Source: Pseudomonadota bacterium
GTDB lineage: Bacteria > Pseudomonadota > Gammaproteobacteria > Steroidobacterales > Steroidobacteraceae
Direction: 5' to 3'
Length of the DNA stretch: 47,916 nt
NCBI GenBank assembly: GCA_021787615.1
Contig: JAJYLP010000017.1
Span: 1-47,916 of the forward strand
How positions within the stretch are numbered: the first letter of the stretch is position 1; each line of letters begins with the position of its first letter. Positions 40,643-47,916 of the stretch are shown here, piece by piece. A model generated the notes under the pieces. The model saw only the letters and a list, made by a program, of their open reading frames with translations. It was not told where the DNA came from and did not search any database. A program made the translations under genes and the position numbers.

Positions 40643-41122
40643 TCAGGGCCCGGTCGGATCGGCCGCGCCGAGCGCACTGCCGAGGGCGGCGAACTCGCCT
40701 TCGAAGCGGCCGACGGTCTCTCGGGCGCAGCTCAGTTCGGCATCGAGCCGCAGACGCGCCCGTCCCCGCCGCGCCAGTATGGTGGCGAAGCGCTCCCAAG
40801 CGGCCGGGTCGCTGAGCCGGCACTCGGCGGCGAAGTCTGCGGGGATGGGGCGCTCATATTCCATGCGGCTGCGCTGAATCACCGTCCGGGCGCTGAGCCC
40901 GGCCGCCGCGAGCCGCAGGTGCAGCAGGCTCCAGGCGGCGAGCGTCGCGACGGCCGCCGCCGAGCCGCCGAAAACCGTGCCGGCGTGATTGATGTTCTCG
41001 GCGAGCGGCGCCGTGAGCCGCACGTACTCGGCGCTGGCTTCGGCAACGCGCACGCCGAGGGCCGCGGATAGGGGAATCCGCCGGTGCAGATAGCGCTCGA
41101 GGGCGGCTTCGGGCGCGTCCAT
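40643..41122 (-). CDS. YiiD C-terminal-type hotdog thioesterase
   Basis: 159-residue single hotdog-fold domain. The motif region is LTAPLAENINHAGTVFGGSAAAVATLAAWSLL, with the conserved N-H-x-G-T-x-F-G-G found in YiiD C-terminal domains; IQRSRMEYERPIPADF follows. It probably hydrolyses an acyl-CoA; the substrate is unknown. It lies 18 bp after gloA on the same strand and may belong to the AHAS-gloA transcript. Confidence 0.82.
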   Translation of the reverse strand: MDAPEAALERYLHRRIPLSAALGVRVAEASAEYVRLTAPLAENINHAGTVFGGSAAAVATLAAWSLLHLRLAAAGLSARTVIQRSRMEYERPIPADFAAECRLSDPAAWERFATILARRGRARLRLDAELSCARETVGRFEGEFAALGSALGAADPTGP

Positions 41123-41569: not shown

Positions 41570-43417
41570 TCAGAACATCTCGGACGGCCCGGGCGGCGTG
41601 ATCTCGACCTTGCGGCGTGAGGCGATGAATTCCCCGGTGATCATCTCCTCGTAGGTCTGCCCGGGACCGACCATCGGATAGACGCCGGCGTCGGGGTCGA
41701 TCATCACCTCGAGGAAGGCCGGCCCCTGGAAGCGCAGGAACTCCTCGATCACGCGCGGCACGTCCGCCTTGCGCTCGAGCCGCACGGCGTAGGGGAAGCC
41801 GTCCGCCTCGGCGGCGCGGATGAAGTCCTTCTTGTGCAGCGAGCGGTCGCTCGCCGACAGGCGGCCCTTGAAGAAGAGCTTCTGCCACTGCTTGACCATG
41901 CCGTCGCCACAGTTGTTGAGCACGACGATCTTGATCGGCAGCTCGTAGGTGGTGACGGTCTCGAGCTCGCCGAGGTTCATGCGGATGCTCGAGTCCCCGT
42001 CGATGTCCACCACCAGGCGCTCGGGGTGCGCGAGCTGCGCGCCGATCGCCGCCGGCAGACCGAACCCCATCGTGCCCATGCTGCCGGAGGTCAGCCACAG
42101 CCGCGGCCGGCGGAAGTCGCAGTATTGCGCCGCCCACATCTGGTGCTGGCCGACCCCGGTGGTGATGATGGCCTCGCCGCCGGTGATCCGGTTGATCTGC
42201 TCGATCACGTAGTACGGCTGGATGAGCGCGCTGTCACGGTCGTAGTTCATGGCGTGCCGGCGCTTGAGCTCGGCCAGGTGCGCGAGCCAGGGCGCGACGT
42301 CGGGCTTGAAGCCCGCAGAGCGGCCATGGGCCGTGAGCGCGCCCAGCGCCTCGGCCAGCAGGCCGACGTGGCTCCAGTGCGCGCGCTTCACCTTGTTGAT
42401 TTCCGCGCTGTCGATGTCCAGATGCGCGACGCGCCGCGCGCCGCGCGCGAACTTGGCCGGCACGCCGGCGACCCGGTCGTCGAAGCGCGCGCCGACGGCG
42501 ATGAGAAAATCGCAGTCATCGACCGCATAGTTGGCGTAGGCCGCCCCGTGCATGCCGAGCATGCGCATCGCGAGCGGATGAGTGGTGTCGATGGAGCCGA
42601 TGCCCATCAGCGTGGTGACCACAGGGAGGTCGAACGCGGTTGCGAACGCAACGAGTTCGTCCGACGCATCGCCGTGGATGACACCGCCGCCGGCGTAGAT
42701 CAGCGGACGGCGCGACTCGCCGAGCATCTCGAAGAAGCGCCCCGACTCGCGCGGCGCGAGCCGCCGCTCGGCGAGCGCCTGCATGCGGCGGCGGTAACCG
42801 GGGATGGGCAGGGTGCCGGCGCCCTGGAAGAGCCCCTCCCAGTTCTGCACGTCCTTGGGCACATCGATCACCACGGGCCCGGGCCGGCCGGTGCGGGCCA
42901 GCTCGAACGCCGTGCGCATGGTGGCCTCGAGGCGCTGCGGCTCGGTCACCAGGAACACGTGTTTGGCGACCGAGCCCATGATGGCGGTCACCGGGGCCTC
43001 CTGGAACGCATCGGTGCCGATGGCCGCGCGCGCCACCTGGCCGCAGATCACCACGATCGGCACCGAATCGGCCATACAGTCGCGCACCGGGGTGACGGTG
43101 TTCGTGGCGCCGGGCCCCGAGGTGACCAGGCAGACGCCGACCCGCCCGGTGGCCCGCGCGAATCCGGCTGCCATGAAGCCCGCGCCCTGCTCGTTGGCCG
43201 GCACGATCAGCGGGATCTGCCGGCCGCCGGCACGCTGCTGCTCCTCGTTGTAGAGGAATATGGCATCGTAGGTCGGCAGGATCGCCCCGCCGCTGTAGCC
43301 GAAGATCGCCTCGACCCCTTCGTCCGCCAGCACCTGCATGATCATCCGGGCGCCGGACATCGGGTGTCCGGCGAGCGGGTGCGCGCCCTGGGCGGATTCG
43401 GGGACGGTCGTGATCAT
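41570..43417 (-). CDS. ilvI: acetohydroxyacid (acetolactate) synthase large subunit
   Basis: TPP-dependent enzyme that condenses pyruvate with pyruvate or 2-oxobutanoate in valine, leucine and isoleucine synthesis. It has 615 residues from the ATG at 43417; an in-frame ATG at 43444 is possible. Landmarks are FGYSGGAILPTYDA, the TPP glutamate in PANEQGAGFMAAG, VTSGPGATNTVTP, IGTDAFQEAP (biosynthetic type), RFDDRVAG, and the TPP/Mg motif DIDGDSSIRMNLGEL with LNN about 26 residues on. The segment GMVKQWQKLFFKGRLS matches the family. The small subunit ilvH is not downstream but divergent, 174 bp away, an atypical layout. The symbol could equally be ilvB. Confidence 0.93.
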   Translation of the reverse strand: MITTVPESAQGAHPLAGHPMSGARMIMQVLADEGVEAIFGYSGGAILPTYDAIFLYNEEQQRAGGRQIPLIVPANEQGAGFMAAGFARATGRVGVCLVTSGPGATNTVTPVRDCMADSVPIVVICGQVARAAIGTDAFQEAPVTAIMGSVAKHVFLVTEPQRLEATMRTAFELARTGRPGPVVIDVPKDVQNWEGLFQGAGTLPIPGYRRRMQALAERRLAPRESGRFFEMLGESRRPLIYAGGGVIHGDASDELVAFATAFDLPVVTTLMGIGSIDTTHPLAMRMLGMHGAAYANYAVDDCDFLIAVGARFDDRVAGVPAKFARGARRVAHLDIDSAEINKVKRAHWSHVGLLAEALGALTAHGRSAGFKPDVAPWLAHLAELKRRHAMNYDRDSALIQPYYVIEQINRITGGEAIITTGVGQHQMWAAQYCDFRRPRLWLTSGSMGTMGFGLPAAIGAQLAHPERLVVDIDGDSSIRMNLGELETVTTYELPIKIVVLNNCGDGMVKQWQKLFFKGRLSASDRSLHKKDFIRAAEADGFPYAVRLERKADVPRVIEEFLRFQGPAFLEVMIDPDAGVYPMVGPGQTYEEMITGEFIASRRKVEITPPGPSEMF

Positions 43418-43521
43418 GGCGGCGCTCTCATGTGGCGGCGGCATCGGTCCGGATAGAGGGAGATGCCATGAGACTAGCAGGTCGCTCCCCCCGCAGGAAG
43501 TTGCGTGCTGCGCGAGCGCGC

Positions 43522-43551
43522 GTGACCGCTGCGGGCGCGATCCTTTATTCT
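43522..43551 (+). promoter_or_regulatory. possible ilvH promoter
   Basis: GTGACC (43522-43527), an 18-bp spacer and TATTCT (43546-43551) would start transcription about 35 bp before the ilvH ATG. It lies in the shared region with the divergent AHAS large-subunit gene. Confidence 0.35.
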
Positions 43552-43591
43552 GCGGGTGCGGGCGGTTGCGCCCGCTGTCCCCTGGAAAACC

Positions 43592-44095
43592 ATGCGTCAC
43601 ATCATCGCCATTCTGCTGCAGAACGAAGCCGGCGCCCTCAGCCGGGTCGCCGGCATGTTCGCCACGCGCGCCTACAACATCGAGTCGCTCTCGGTCGCGG
43701 CCACGCAGGATCCGACCGTATCGCGCCTGACGCTGGTCACCCAAGGGTCGGATGCCGTCATGCAGCAGATCGTCAATCAGCTGCTCAAGCTCATCGACGT
43801 GGTCAGCGTCGAGGACATGACCAGCGGCGAGCACCTCGAGCGCGAACTCATCCTCCTGAAGCTGAAGGTCCGTCCCGAGCAGATCGATCCGGTCAGGGGC
43901 TACGTGGTGCGCACCGGCGGACGGGTGCTCGATCCGGCGCCGGACGGATTCATTGTCGAGCTCACCGCGAGCGAGGCGGAAATCAACACCTTCGCGGCCG
44001 ATCTGGCGCGCAGCGCCGAGCTGCTCGAGGTCGTGCGCAGCGGGGCGCTCGGCATCGCGCGCAACGCGCGCCCGATGCGGATGGTGCGCGCCTGA
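43592..44095 (+). CDS. ilvH: acetohydroxyacid synthase small (regulatory) subunit
   Basis: Regulatory subunit that binds valine and activates the large subunit. It has 167 residues (E. coli IlvH 163). An ACT domain opens the protein (MRHIIAILLQNEAGALSRVAGMFATRAYNIESLSV), followed by the C-terminal AHAS small-subunit domain (LERELILLKLKV, GGRVLDPAPDGFIVELT). The ATG at 43592 is the family start. It is divergent from the large subunit and converges on glnK 41 bp downstream. Confidence 0.95.
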   Translation: MRHIIAILLQNEAGALSRVAGMFATRAYNIESLSVAATQDPTVSRLTLVTQGSDAVMQQIVNQLLKLIDVVSVEDMTSGEHLERELILLKLKVRPEQIDPVRGYVVRTGGRVLDPAPDGFIVELTASEAEINTFAADLARSAELLEVVRSGALGIARNARPMRMVRA

Positions 44096-44136
44096 GCGGC
44101 GCGGGGGGGTGTGCGCGGGCCCGATGTGCGCCCGAA

Positions 44137-45949
<1,813 letters not shown>

Positions 45950-46053: not shown

Positions 46054-46082
46054 TTTACGGCAGGACTGTATGAATGTACAGT
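46054..46082 (+). promoter_or_regulatory. promoter of the intein-bearing radical SAM gene, leaderless type
   Basis: TTTACG (46054-46059), a 17-bp spacer and TACAGT (46077-46082) are followed by six bases and the ATG. The geometry equals that of the mnmG promoter. The LexA box covers the spacer end and the -10 element. Confidence 0.5.
46066..46081. promoter_or_regulatory. LexA (SOS) box
   Basis: CTGTATGAATGTACAG fits the gammaproteobacterial LexA consensus CTG-N10-CAG exactly and is flanked by A and T, giving ACTG...CAGT. It overlaps the -10 element and ends 7 bp before the ATG, an ideal repressor position. From memory, PA0069 of Pseudomonas aeruginosa is itself in the LexA regulon, which supports the call. 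Confidence 0.82.
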
Positions 46083-46088
46083 TGCACC

Positions 46089-47916
46089 ATGACCACTCCC
46101 TTCCGAGCCGGCCCGGTGATGCGCGGGCAGGGCGCGCTGTCGAATCCGGCCGGACGTTTCGAGCGGCGGATCACCGAGGCGGTGGACGACGGCTGGTTCC
46201 AAGAGGAAGTCCCGGACAGCGTGCCGCTCGAGATCATGCCGGACCGCGCCCGCAGCATGATCAGCACCAACGATTCGCCGGACATTCCCTTCGAGCAATC
46301 GATCAATCCCTACCGCGGATGCAGCCATGCCTGTCCGTACTGCCTGGCGCCCGACACCCCGATTCTGATGGGCGACGGCAGCGTGCGCCGCCTCGAGCAG
46401 GTGGAGGTGGGGAGCGAGATCTACGGGACGATGCGCCGCGGCGGCCTGCGCCGCTACGTCCGAACGCGGGTGCTCGCCCACTGGAGCGTCATCAAGCCCG
46501 CCTATCGCATTGGCCTCGAGGACGGAACGGAGCTGGTTGCCGGAGGCGATCACCGCTTTCTCACCGAGCGCGGCTGGAAGTTCGTGACCGGGGCGTTGGG
46601 ATCAGGTCCGGTGCAGAGGCCCGGCCTGACCGTTGGCGAGACGCTGATGGGGACGGGGCACTTCGCCCATGGGGTCGAGAAGAGTGCCGACTACCAGCGC
46701 GGGTATCTCGGCGGCATCATCCGCGGCGGCGGTCATTCGGAGGTGCAGGCCCGCAGGGGCGAAGCCGATAGCCGCACGAGCGCTTATGCATTCCAACTGG
46801 CCCGCTGTGACGAGGAGGCGCTCGGCCGCGCGCACGGCTATCTGAGCGAGTTCCTGGCGCCGGCTCGCGAATCCCGCTGCGCCGCGACCGCCGGCGCGCT
46901 CAGGGCCATGTATGCCCCGGCCACCGGGAGCCGCGCGGGCTTCGAGCACATCTGGCGCCTGGTCGCGTGGCCTGCCGCGCCGACGCGGGCCTGGTGCGCG
47001 GGGTTCCTCGCGGGCATCTACGATGCCGGCGGGTCCTGCGCCCATTCGGGGCTGCGCATCGGCAGCACCGACCCGCGGATCATCGAGCGGGCCGGGCAGT
47101 GCCTCGGCGCACTGGGCTTGCGCTTCGCCCTCGAGGAGGCGCTGGTGGGCGGCGGGCCGGTCCACGCCGTGCGTCTGGCCGGCGGGCTGCGCGAGCGCTT
47201 GAGATTTCTCCACACCGTCGATCCGGCGCTGCGCCGCGGGCTCGACATCGAGGAGGAGATCTTGCGCGGCGATGCGCGCCTGCGGGTCGCCTCGATCGAG
47301 CCCGCCGGGGTGATGCGGCTCTACGACATGACCACGGGAAGCGGGGATTTCATCGCCGACGGTGTCGTCAGTCACAACTGCTACGCGCGGCCGAGTCACG
47401 CCTACATGGGCCTCTCGCCGGGGTTGGATTTCGAGACCCGCTTGTTCTACAAGCAGGACGCCGGCCGGCTGCTCGAGCGCGAGCTCGCGCGCCCCGGTTA
47501 CCTCTGCAAGACGATTACGCTCGGATCCAACACCGATCCGTACCAGCCCGTCGAGCGGCGTCTGCGCGTCACGCGCGACATTCTCGAAGTGCTCGCGCGC
47601 TGCCGACACCCGCTCACCATCATCACCAAGAGCGCGCTCGTGCTGCGCGATCTGGATCTGCTCGGCGCACTGGCGCGCGACAACCTGGCGCGGGTGGGTG
47701 TCAGCATCACCACGCTCGATGCCGAGCTCAAGCGAACCATGGAGCCGCAGGCCGCATCGCCCGCGGCCCGGCTGCGTGTGGTGCGCGAGCTGACCGCGGC
47801 GGGGGTCCCCACCGGGGTGCTGGTGGCGCCGGTGATCCCGGCGCTGACCGATCACGAGATGGAGCACATCGTGCAGGCGGCCGCCGAGGCGGGCGCCCGC
47901 TGGGCCGGCTACGTCC
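46089..47916 (+). CDS. PA0069-family radical SAM protein with in-frame intein, 3' truncated by window end
   Basis: The frame is open from the ATG at 46089 to the last base (609 codons, no stop). The N-extein (1-84) has GQGALSNPAGRFE and INPYRGCSHACPY; the C-extein (from 431) continues CYARPSHAYMGLSPGLDFETRLFYKQDA, then LGSNTDPYQPVERRL, ILEVLARCRHPLTIITKSAL and NLARVGVSITTLD. Once joined, they give the radical SAM motif CX3CX2C (Cys78, Cys82, Cys431). The family is related to SplB-type DNA photoproduct lyases; its reaction is not established. Residues 85-430 are an intein. There is no Shine-Dalgarno site; a promoter with a LexA box abuts the ATG, so SOS control and leaderless translation are likely. 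A later ATG (46119) is a less likely start. Confidence 0.9.
   Translation, partial: MTTPFRAGPVMRGQGALSNPAGRFERRITEAVDDGWFQEEVPDSVPLEIMPDRARSMISTNDSPDIPFEQSINPYRGCSHACPYCLAPDTPILMGDGSVRRLEQVEVGSEIYGTMRRGGLRRYVRTRVLAHWSVIKPAYRIGLEDGTELVAGGDHRFLTERGWKFVTGALGSGPVQRPGLTVGETLMGTGHFAHGVEKSADYQRGYLGGIIRGGGHSEVQARRGEADSRTSAYAFQLARCDEEALGRAHGYLSEFLAPARESRCAATAGALRAMYAPATGSRAGFEHIWRLVAWPAAPTRAWCAGFLAGIYDAGGSCAHSGLRIGSTDPRIIERAGQCLGALGLRFALEEALVGGGPVHAVRLAGGLRERLRFLHTVDPALRRGLDIEEEILRGDARLRVASIEPAGVMRLYDMTTGSGDFIADGVVSHNCYARPSHAYMGLSPGLDFETRLFYKQDAGRLLERELARPGYLCKTITLGSNTDPYQPVERRLRVTRDILEVLARCRHPLTIITKSALVLRDLDLLGALARDNLARVGVSITTLDAELKRTMEPQAASPAARLRVVRELTAAGVPTGVLVAPVIPALTDHEMEHIVQAAAEAGARWAGYV
46341..47378 (+). 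mobile_element. 346-residue intein with degenerate LAGLIDADG endonuclease
   Basis: Protein-level mobile element encoded in frame inside the radical SAM gene. Block A is CLAPDTPILMGDG with nucleophile Cys85 (intein Cys1); block B has GGDHRFLT (His155; the usual Thr three places before is Gly152); block F is LYDMTTGSGDFIADG; block G is VVSHN with His429-Asn430, followed by Cys431 (+1). Between them lie two LAGLIDADG-like helices, LGGIIRGGG (207-215) and LAGIYDAGG (307-315). In both, the catalytic acid at position 8 is Gly, so DNA cleavage is probably lost while all splicing nucleophiles remain. GC content resembles the host gene, so the insertion is not recent. Confidence 0.9.

Follow-up and report, generated by a model that had tools for sequence, protein, structure and literature searches.

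The window analysed here, the complete contig C12 (47,916 bases) of a 3.73 Mb assembly in 176 contigs, carries a 346-residue intein inside a PA0069-family radical S-adenosylmethionine (SAM) protein. The intein runs from Cys1 to Asn346 at 46341-47378 on the plus strand, as do all parts of the gene given below, and its insertion point in the CX3CX2C motif of the host separates the second cysteine from the third. Judged from its sequence, it is very probably a class 1 intein (Cys1/Asn/Cys+1) of the NF038136 allele, competent for splicing and dead for homing, lodged before the third cluster cysteine of the enzyme. We favor the class 1 reading because the anatomy, the homology, the predicted fold, the exact empty sites and the constraint on the splicing domain all point to it, and ordinary class 1 splicing with scarless restoration of the enzyme is the best supported explanation.

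The host gene occupies a single frame that stays open, without interruption, from 46074 to the end of the window. Its N-extein (46074-46340), whose start ATG is unsure and lies at 46074 or 46089, belongs to the PA0069 family of radical SAM proteins. On this side of the intein, positions 1-82 of the family profile NF033668 match 46122-46367. The N-extein ends in CSHACPY (46320-46340), which holds the codons of the first two cluster cysteines (46320-46322 and 46332-46334) together with the residues at -2 and -1, and which is also present in intein-free kin of the same genus. In frame order, GCSHACPY is followed by the intein, which opens with CLAPDTPILMGDG and closes with GSGDFIADGVVSHN (ending in DGVVSHN), and then by CYARPSHAYMG. 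The third cluster cysteine (codon 47379-47381) is the +1 residue. The preliminary description had already given this cysteine the position of the +1 nucleophile, and the sequence bears it out; the span proposed there (46318-47400) encloses the intein, and its count of 346 residues is correct. The C-extein (47379-47916), which opens with the same cysteine, leaves the contig and resumes on contig C1 of the same genome, where the remaining C-terminal part runs to the stop codon. The first 364 bases of C1 are 99.2% identical to the window end (47553-47916), and the three mismatches suggest that the assembly mixes strains. Scored against NF033668 (cut-off 360), the truncated open reading frame (ORF) of the window passes narrowly with 362.7, and a full-length near relative, L136, reaches 480 bits.

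Taken alone, the intein matched NCBIfam NF038136, titled 'intein-containing Rv2578c family radical SAM protein', with residues 1-346 aligned to positions 76-334 of the 574 in the model (207 bits, 4.4e-61). Since this match runs from end to end of the intein, the allele is already catalogued. The class 1 residues C1, H71, D329, H345, N346 and C+1 are all present in the window. At least 119 loci in 84,980 named species genomes fitted a junction pattern; a rule requiring Cys1 and His-Asn selected 96 complete inteins among the matches listed. With 12 more from the genus of the window, these make 108 complete inteins from 107 distinct genomes (G008 and L136 are the same genome, and their intein DNA is identical). 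All 108 keep His71 of block B and Asp329 of block F. Cys1, His345 and Asn346 also occur in 108 of 108, a count that the extraction rule itself imposes for Cys1 and His-Asn; when the rule is not applied, the 98 readable N-junctions among the matches listed have Cys as residue 1 in 97 cases and Ser in one, L151. The 23 remaining listed loci include L109, complete except that its first cluster cysteine is cut off, L151 with its Ser1, L071, which has stop codons upstream of the junction, and L154, whose frame is broken upstream; the rest have no in-frame N-junction, and in nearly all of them the available stretch ends near the junction.

The intein is laid out as a splicing (Hint) domain split by an endonuclease region. 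The N-terminal part of the Hint domain, residues 1-110 (46341-46670), contains Cys1 (46341-46343) and block B His71 (46551-46553), and the C-terminal part, residues 300-346 (47238-47378), contains block F Asp329 (47325-47327) and His345-Asn346 (47373-47378). Between them, residues 111-299 (46671-47237) form the LAGLIDADG homing endonuclease region, whose boundary was set by eye from an alignment with a mini-intein. An AlphaFold2 model was built from 45 inteins, namely that of the window and the 44 longer than 320 residues among the 96 complete ones listed. This model had a mean predicted local distance difference test (pLDDT) of 84.8, with residues 133-145 and 175-190 below 50. The top rows of a Foldseek search were the TliVMA intein and PI-SceI, with a template modelling (TM) score of 0.30-0.40 of the query and a root-mean-square deviation (rmsd) near 15, as if the two domains were placed differently relative to each other. 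When the Foldseek match list was re-examined with VIA-align, the top rows were mini-inteins and splicing domains, including the NpuDnaB intein (Z 20.1, rmsd 1.7, 134 residues aligned), and residues 116-294 of the model matched I-DmoI (Z 15.6, rmsd 2.7, 169 aligned). The I-DmoI-like fold covers about residues 115-296, and in the predicted model a Hint fold is interrupted by an endonuclease domain. A sequence search of solved structures returned weak matches only, the best at 0.031.

Exact empty sites are found within the genus. An extein alignment of 29 same-genus genes (17 empty, 12 joined) is free of gaps for 8 residues on either side of the junction, and none of the 17 intein-free genes shows a gap or an extra residue there. 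One of the intein-free genes, L013, reads INPYRGCSHACPYCYARPSHAYMGL and is there identical in every letter to the sequence expected of the window's protein after splicing. Together with the NF038136 match and the predicted fold, the gapless junction upholds the proposal in the preliminary description that an intein lies in this radical SAM frame. In G023 (L051, G023:C91, about 41,020-41,050), a frameshift interrupts the empty gene a few codons beyond the insertion site, and this gene was left out of both the junction alignment and the extein tree; the frameshift may reflect a sequencing error, a pseudogene or the scar of a repaired cut.

The endonuclease, in turn, appears to have decayed. Its first LAGLIDADG motif, GYLGGIIRGGG (46701-46733), and its second, GFLAGIYDAGG (47001-47033), both carry glycine in place of the catalytic acid, and the window therefore lacks the acid at the end of both motifs that marks an active LAGLIDADG enzyme. 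Within the genus, both acids are also lost in G006 and G013 and are kept at both motifs in G008, G030, G001, G005, G009, G016, G027 and G034, and in G036 the site is occupied by a mini-intein of 158 residues that lacks an endonuclease. An empty gene, an intein with intact acids, one with both acids lost and a mini-intein, that is, the life stages of an intein, can thus be seen together at one site in one genus. Among the matches listed, inteins of at least 250 residues (n=68) have both acids in 42 cases, one in 16 and none in 10, and 27 of the 96 complete inteins listed are 172 residues or shorter.

Substitution rates were compared between the parts of the gene. Among the window's genome (G000), G008 and G030, pairwise ratios of nonsynonymous to synonymous substitution rates (dN/dS) in the splicing domain were 0.13-0.35 (N-terminal part) and 0.40-0.62 (short C-terminal part), and those in the endonuclease region were 0.62-0.90. 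The exteins gave 0.35-0.44 (N-extein) and 0.12-0.15 (C-extein); for the window against G008 and G030, the values were 0.12 and 0.15 in the C-extein and 0.35 and 0.44 in the N-extein, which is less constrained. On the window branch since the split from G008, the splicing domain accumulated seven synonymous and no nonsynonymous changes and the endonuclease three and ten (Fisher p 0.003), codon-change counts that are small. The contrast between endonuclease and exteins reached p<0.05 in five of six pairs.

The intein is patchily distributed. It is present in 12 of the 37 genomes of the genus (G000, G001, G005, G006, G008, G009, G013, G016, G027, G030, G034 and G036), and 18 of the 37 have an empty site, 17 in an intact gene and G023 in its frameshifted one. 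G003 gave a partial match to family positions 131-202 only, a part that does not contain the cluster motif, and six genomes, several of them incomplete, gave no host-family match. Among 23 other genomes of the order we found ten strong host matches without an intein, one weak match and no intein at the site. In 368 other genomes of the class, surveyed with at most five candidates scored per genome, the sole strong match to the allele was a truncated gene in G099; 40 more genomes gave weak matches (best E 1e-11 to 5e-4, open frames of 495-2406 amino acids). The G099 gene (L183, G099:C20:3083-3631) consists of the N-extein and the first half of the intein, followed by a stop, and a frame near it resembles a REP-associated transposase. 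The 96 complete inteins listed come from Actinomycetota (83), Pseudomonadota (10) and Omnitrophota (3), and one further listed locus, cut by its end, comes from Binatia. Searches of other sequence collections were negative or nearly so: the junction pattern had no match in viral contigs, and a tblastn search with the intein drew no match from 50,697 phage records, whereas 72,556 plasmid records yielded a single match, weak and partial (37% covered, 3e-7).

In a quick intein tree of 107 rows, built without bootstrap and with its Pseudomonadota rows taken from the matches listed, a cluster of 20 takes in nine of the ten Pseudomonadota rows and every one of the 11 genus rows, with a Shimodaira-Hasegawa-like approximate likelihood ratio test (SH-aLRT) value of 89. 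This cluster adjoins Omnitrophota and Actinomycetota rows. On the extein tree (37 rows, with L027 and L028 excluded by the motif rule), the presence or absence of the intein needs seven changes, at least three of them forced by starred branches, and the label is more clustered than in most shuffles. Such patchy presence is the pattern of a mobile element, one that would have been gained or lost several times.

Our model suggests that the gene product would be made as a single precursor. The Hint domain (residues 1-110 and 300-346) would carry out an N-to-S shift at Tyr(-1)-Cys1 and then a transesterification to Cys+1. Cyclization of Asn346 and an S-to-N shift would follow and leave the unscarred CSHACPYCYARPSHAY enzyme, which would then be able to take up its [4Fe-4S] cluster. 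From its patchy distribution, we hypothesize that homing and horizontal transfer carried the allele among Actinomycetota, Pseudomonadota and Omnitrophota. As both catalytic acids are lost, the intein in the window's lineage is most likely now inherited vertically, and it would persist because the host gene stays functional only if the intein is spliced out or exactly deleted. We infer the splicing itself, the loss of homing and the vertical persistence alike.

The preliminary description had gone further, stating that the precursor cannot hold the cluster in normal form and that activity is strictly tied to splicing. Neither statement is established. Because Cys1 directly follows CSHACPY, the precursor reads CSHACPYC and retains CX3CX2C, with the third cysteine supplied by the intein; a precursor without a third cysteine was accordingly rejected, Cys1 being present at that position. 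Cluster binding by the precursor would depend on Cys1 being free in the folded Hint active site. It is likely that enzyme activity is tied to splicing, because 346 residues within the loop should wreck the SAM site. In L151, from Cryobacterium algoritolerans, the intein at the same site starts with Ser (CSYS/LSPET); its precursor would therefore truly be without the third cluster cysteine, which makes L151 a natural control for the Cys1 question.

The same pair of cysteines, Cys(-3) and Cys1, present in the window as CPY/C, raises the alternative of a conditional switch. Here a disulfide between them (CPYC), or else iron, zinc or a nascent cluster, would block the first splicing step, and splicing would be freed on reduction or on departure of the metal, which would delay maturation of an oxygen-sensitive enzyme until it is able to work. 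We consider this rather unlikely, even though several observations speak for it. The spacing is that of the redox-trapped Ssp DnaE design and of the native P. abyssi MoaA intein (PMC3922620, PMC10663303); the redox-trap structure 3nzm is among the fold matches to the predicted intein model; Cys1 re-forms CX3CX2C in the precursor; and on the window branch constraint is stronger in the splicing domain than in the endonuclease. However, Cys(-3) is a cluster cysteine that is also found in the 17 intein-free genes, and its presence is therefore uninformative on selection for a switch. A switch would moreover be dispensable, since the gene is intein-free in 18 of the 37 same-genus genomes, and the patchy gain and loss fits a parasite. 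With Cys(-3) fixed by the need for the cluster and 18 of 37 genomes intein-free, selection for a switch is not visible. In a more elaborate form, the N-extein and the intein would jointly hold a cluster or iron that caps the nucleophile, loss of the metal or reduction of Cys(-3)-Cys1 would free splicing, and Cys+1 would then replace Cys1. We give this form only a slim chance of being right; if true, the intein would act as a switch, gated by a cluster or by redox state, for the maturation of a radical SAM enzyme. Redox or metal regulation through Cys(-3)/Cys1 is possible, and it explains no observation that class 1 splicing with scarless restoration does not already cover.

The loss of both endonuclease acids would also suit an intein that is splicing-dead in this species, sitting in a decaying pseudogene, and so would the six same-genus genomes without a host-family match (several being incomplete) and, elsewhere in the class, the truncated gene of G099. 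We regard such decay as very unlikely: the frame is open throughout, the splicing residues are kept, the window branch has no nonsynonymous change in the splicing domain against ten in the endonuclease, and the C-extein has dN/dS of 0.12 and 0.15 against G008 and G030. It is hardly credible that the intein is an assembly artefact or a chimera at a contig end. The gene does run past the end of C12, and C12 and C1 differ at three of the 364 bases by which they overlap, but 538 bases separate the end of the intein from that of the contig. Other genomes of the genus, G008 and G030, have this intein at this site well within their contigs, and these copies refute an artefact for the insertion itself.

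Several points weigh against the splicing-competent, homing-dead class 1 intein that we prefer. Profile evidence for an intein, to which the preliminary description had looked, is divided: the NF038136 match stands, whereas the general intein models stay below their cut-offs (TIGR01445 22.1 against 24.5, PF14890 17.4 against 35.8, PF14528 22.2 against 22.5). In block B, the position three before His71 is Gly, where Thr (TxxH) is usual. The DNA of the site is no better conserved than the rest of the gene, its 24-nucleotide window ranking 394 of 654 within the genus; a conserved homing target is therefore not visible, and the idea that the insertion site is the gene's best-conserved DNA in the genus was rejected on this rank. 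The nonsynonymous contrast between endonuclease and splicing domain reached p<0.05 in only two of six pairs (G000-G030, 0.011; G006-G013, 0.0077), the G000-G008 pair giving p 0.067, and the G008 branch shows no contrast, with five nonsynonymous and four synonymous changes in the splicing domain and ten and six in the endonuclease. Finally, splicing is here inferred and not observed.

Nothing else in the window would constitute a separate system. We take the neighbours at 41570-45949 to be the large (minus strand) and small (plus strand) subunits of acetolactate synthase, facing apart, a PII protein (minus) and a flavin adenine dinucleotide (FAD)-dependent ferredoxin reductase (plus). Elsewhere in the same genome, a second intein lies in a 905-amino-acid frame (L182, G000:C21:11684-11941, minus strand), whose host is presumably the replicative helicase DnaB.

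Among known systems, the closest is the NF038136 group of Rv2578c hosts, which shares with the window a homologous intein, the same insertion site and a homologous host. It differs in the host family, which here is the sister family PA0069 (NF033668) and not Rv2578c. Against the whole-protein cut-off of 700 for NF038136, the truncated window ORF scores 459 and L136 471, both below it; of two actinobacterial proteins, L112 passes with 900 and L062, with 668, falls just short. By these profile scores, PA0069 is a new host subfamily for a known intein allele, because all four PA0069-type intein hosts scanned pass NF033668 and all four miss the NF038136 cut-off (454-481 against 700). Our literature search, which covered few subscription papers, found no intein described in a PA0069-type or Rv2578c host. 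The novelty suggested in the preliminary description holds for the host but was overstated, with the allele itself already catalogued and a redox-gated precedent known in MoaA.

We know of no mycobacterial SufB or DnaB intein that interrupts a radical SAM motif at a cysteine binding the cluster. What these inteins share with that of the window is residence in core proteins, and they have been studied for control by oxidation or zinc (PMC8891592, PMC6195587, PMC7360933). The LAGLIDADG inteins with active and inactive endonucleases (PMC8966425) likewise combine a Hint domain with an inserted LAGLIDADG domain and an inactive endonuclease; their hosts are archaeal VMA proteins, and the inactivity in the window is deduced from the lost acids. 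A further comparison is with the MoaA intein of Pyrococcus abyssi (Callahan et al. 2011), in which a Cys(-3)-Cys1 disulfide blocks splicing until it is reduced (PMC3922620, PMC10663303). CPYC in the window has the same Cys(-3)/Cys1 spacing as described there, and from the -3 spacing the MoaA site would also be a CX3CX2C motif. The two differ in host family and in domain of life, and redox control is reported for MoaA. Because Cys(-3) and Cys1 stand in redox-trap spacing in a radical SAM enzyme, conditional splicing is directly testable here in E. coli with a short precursor.
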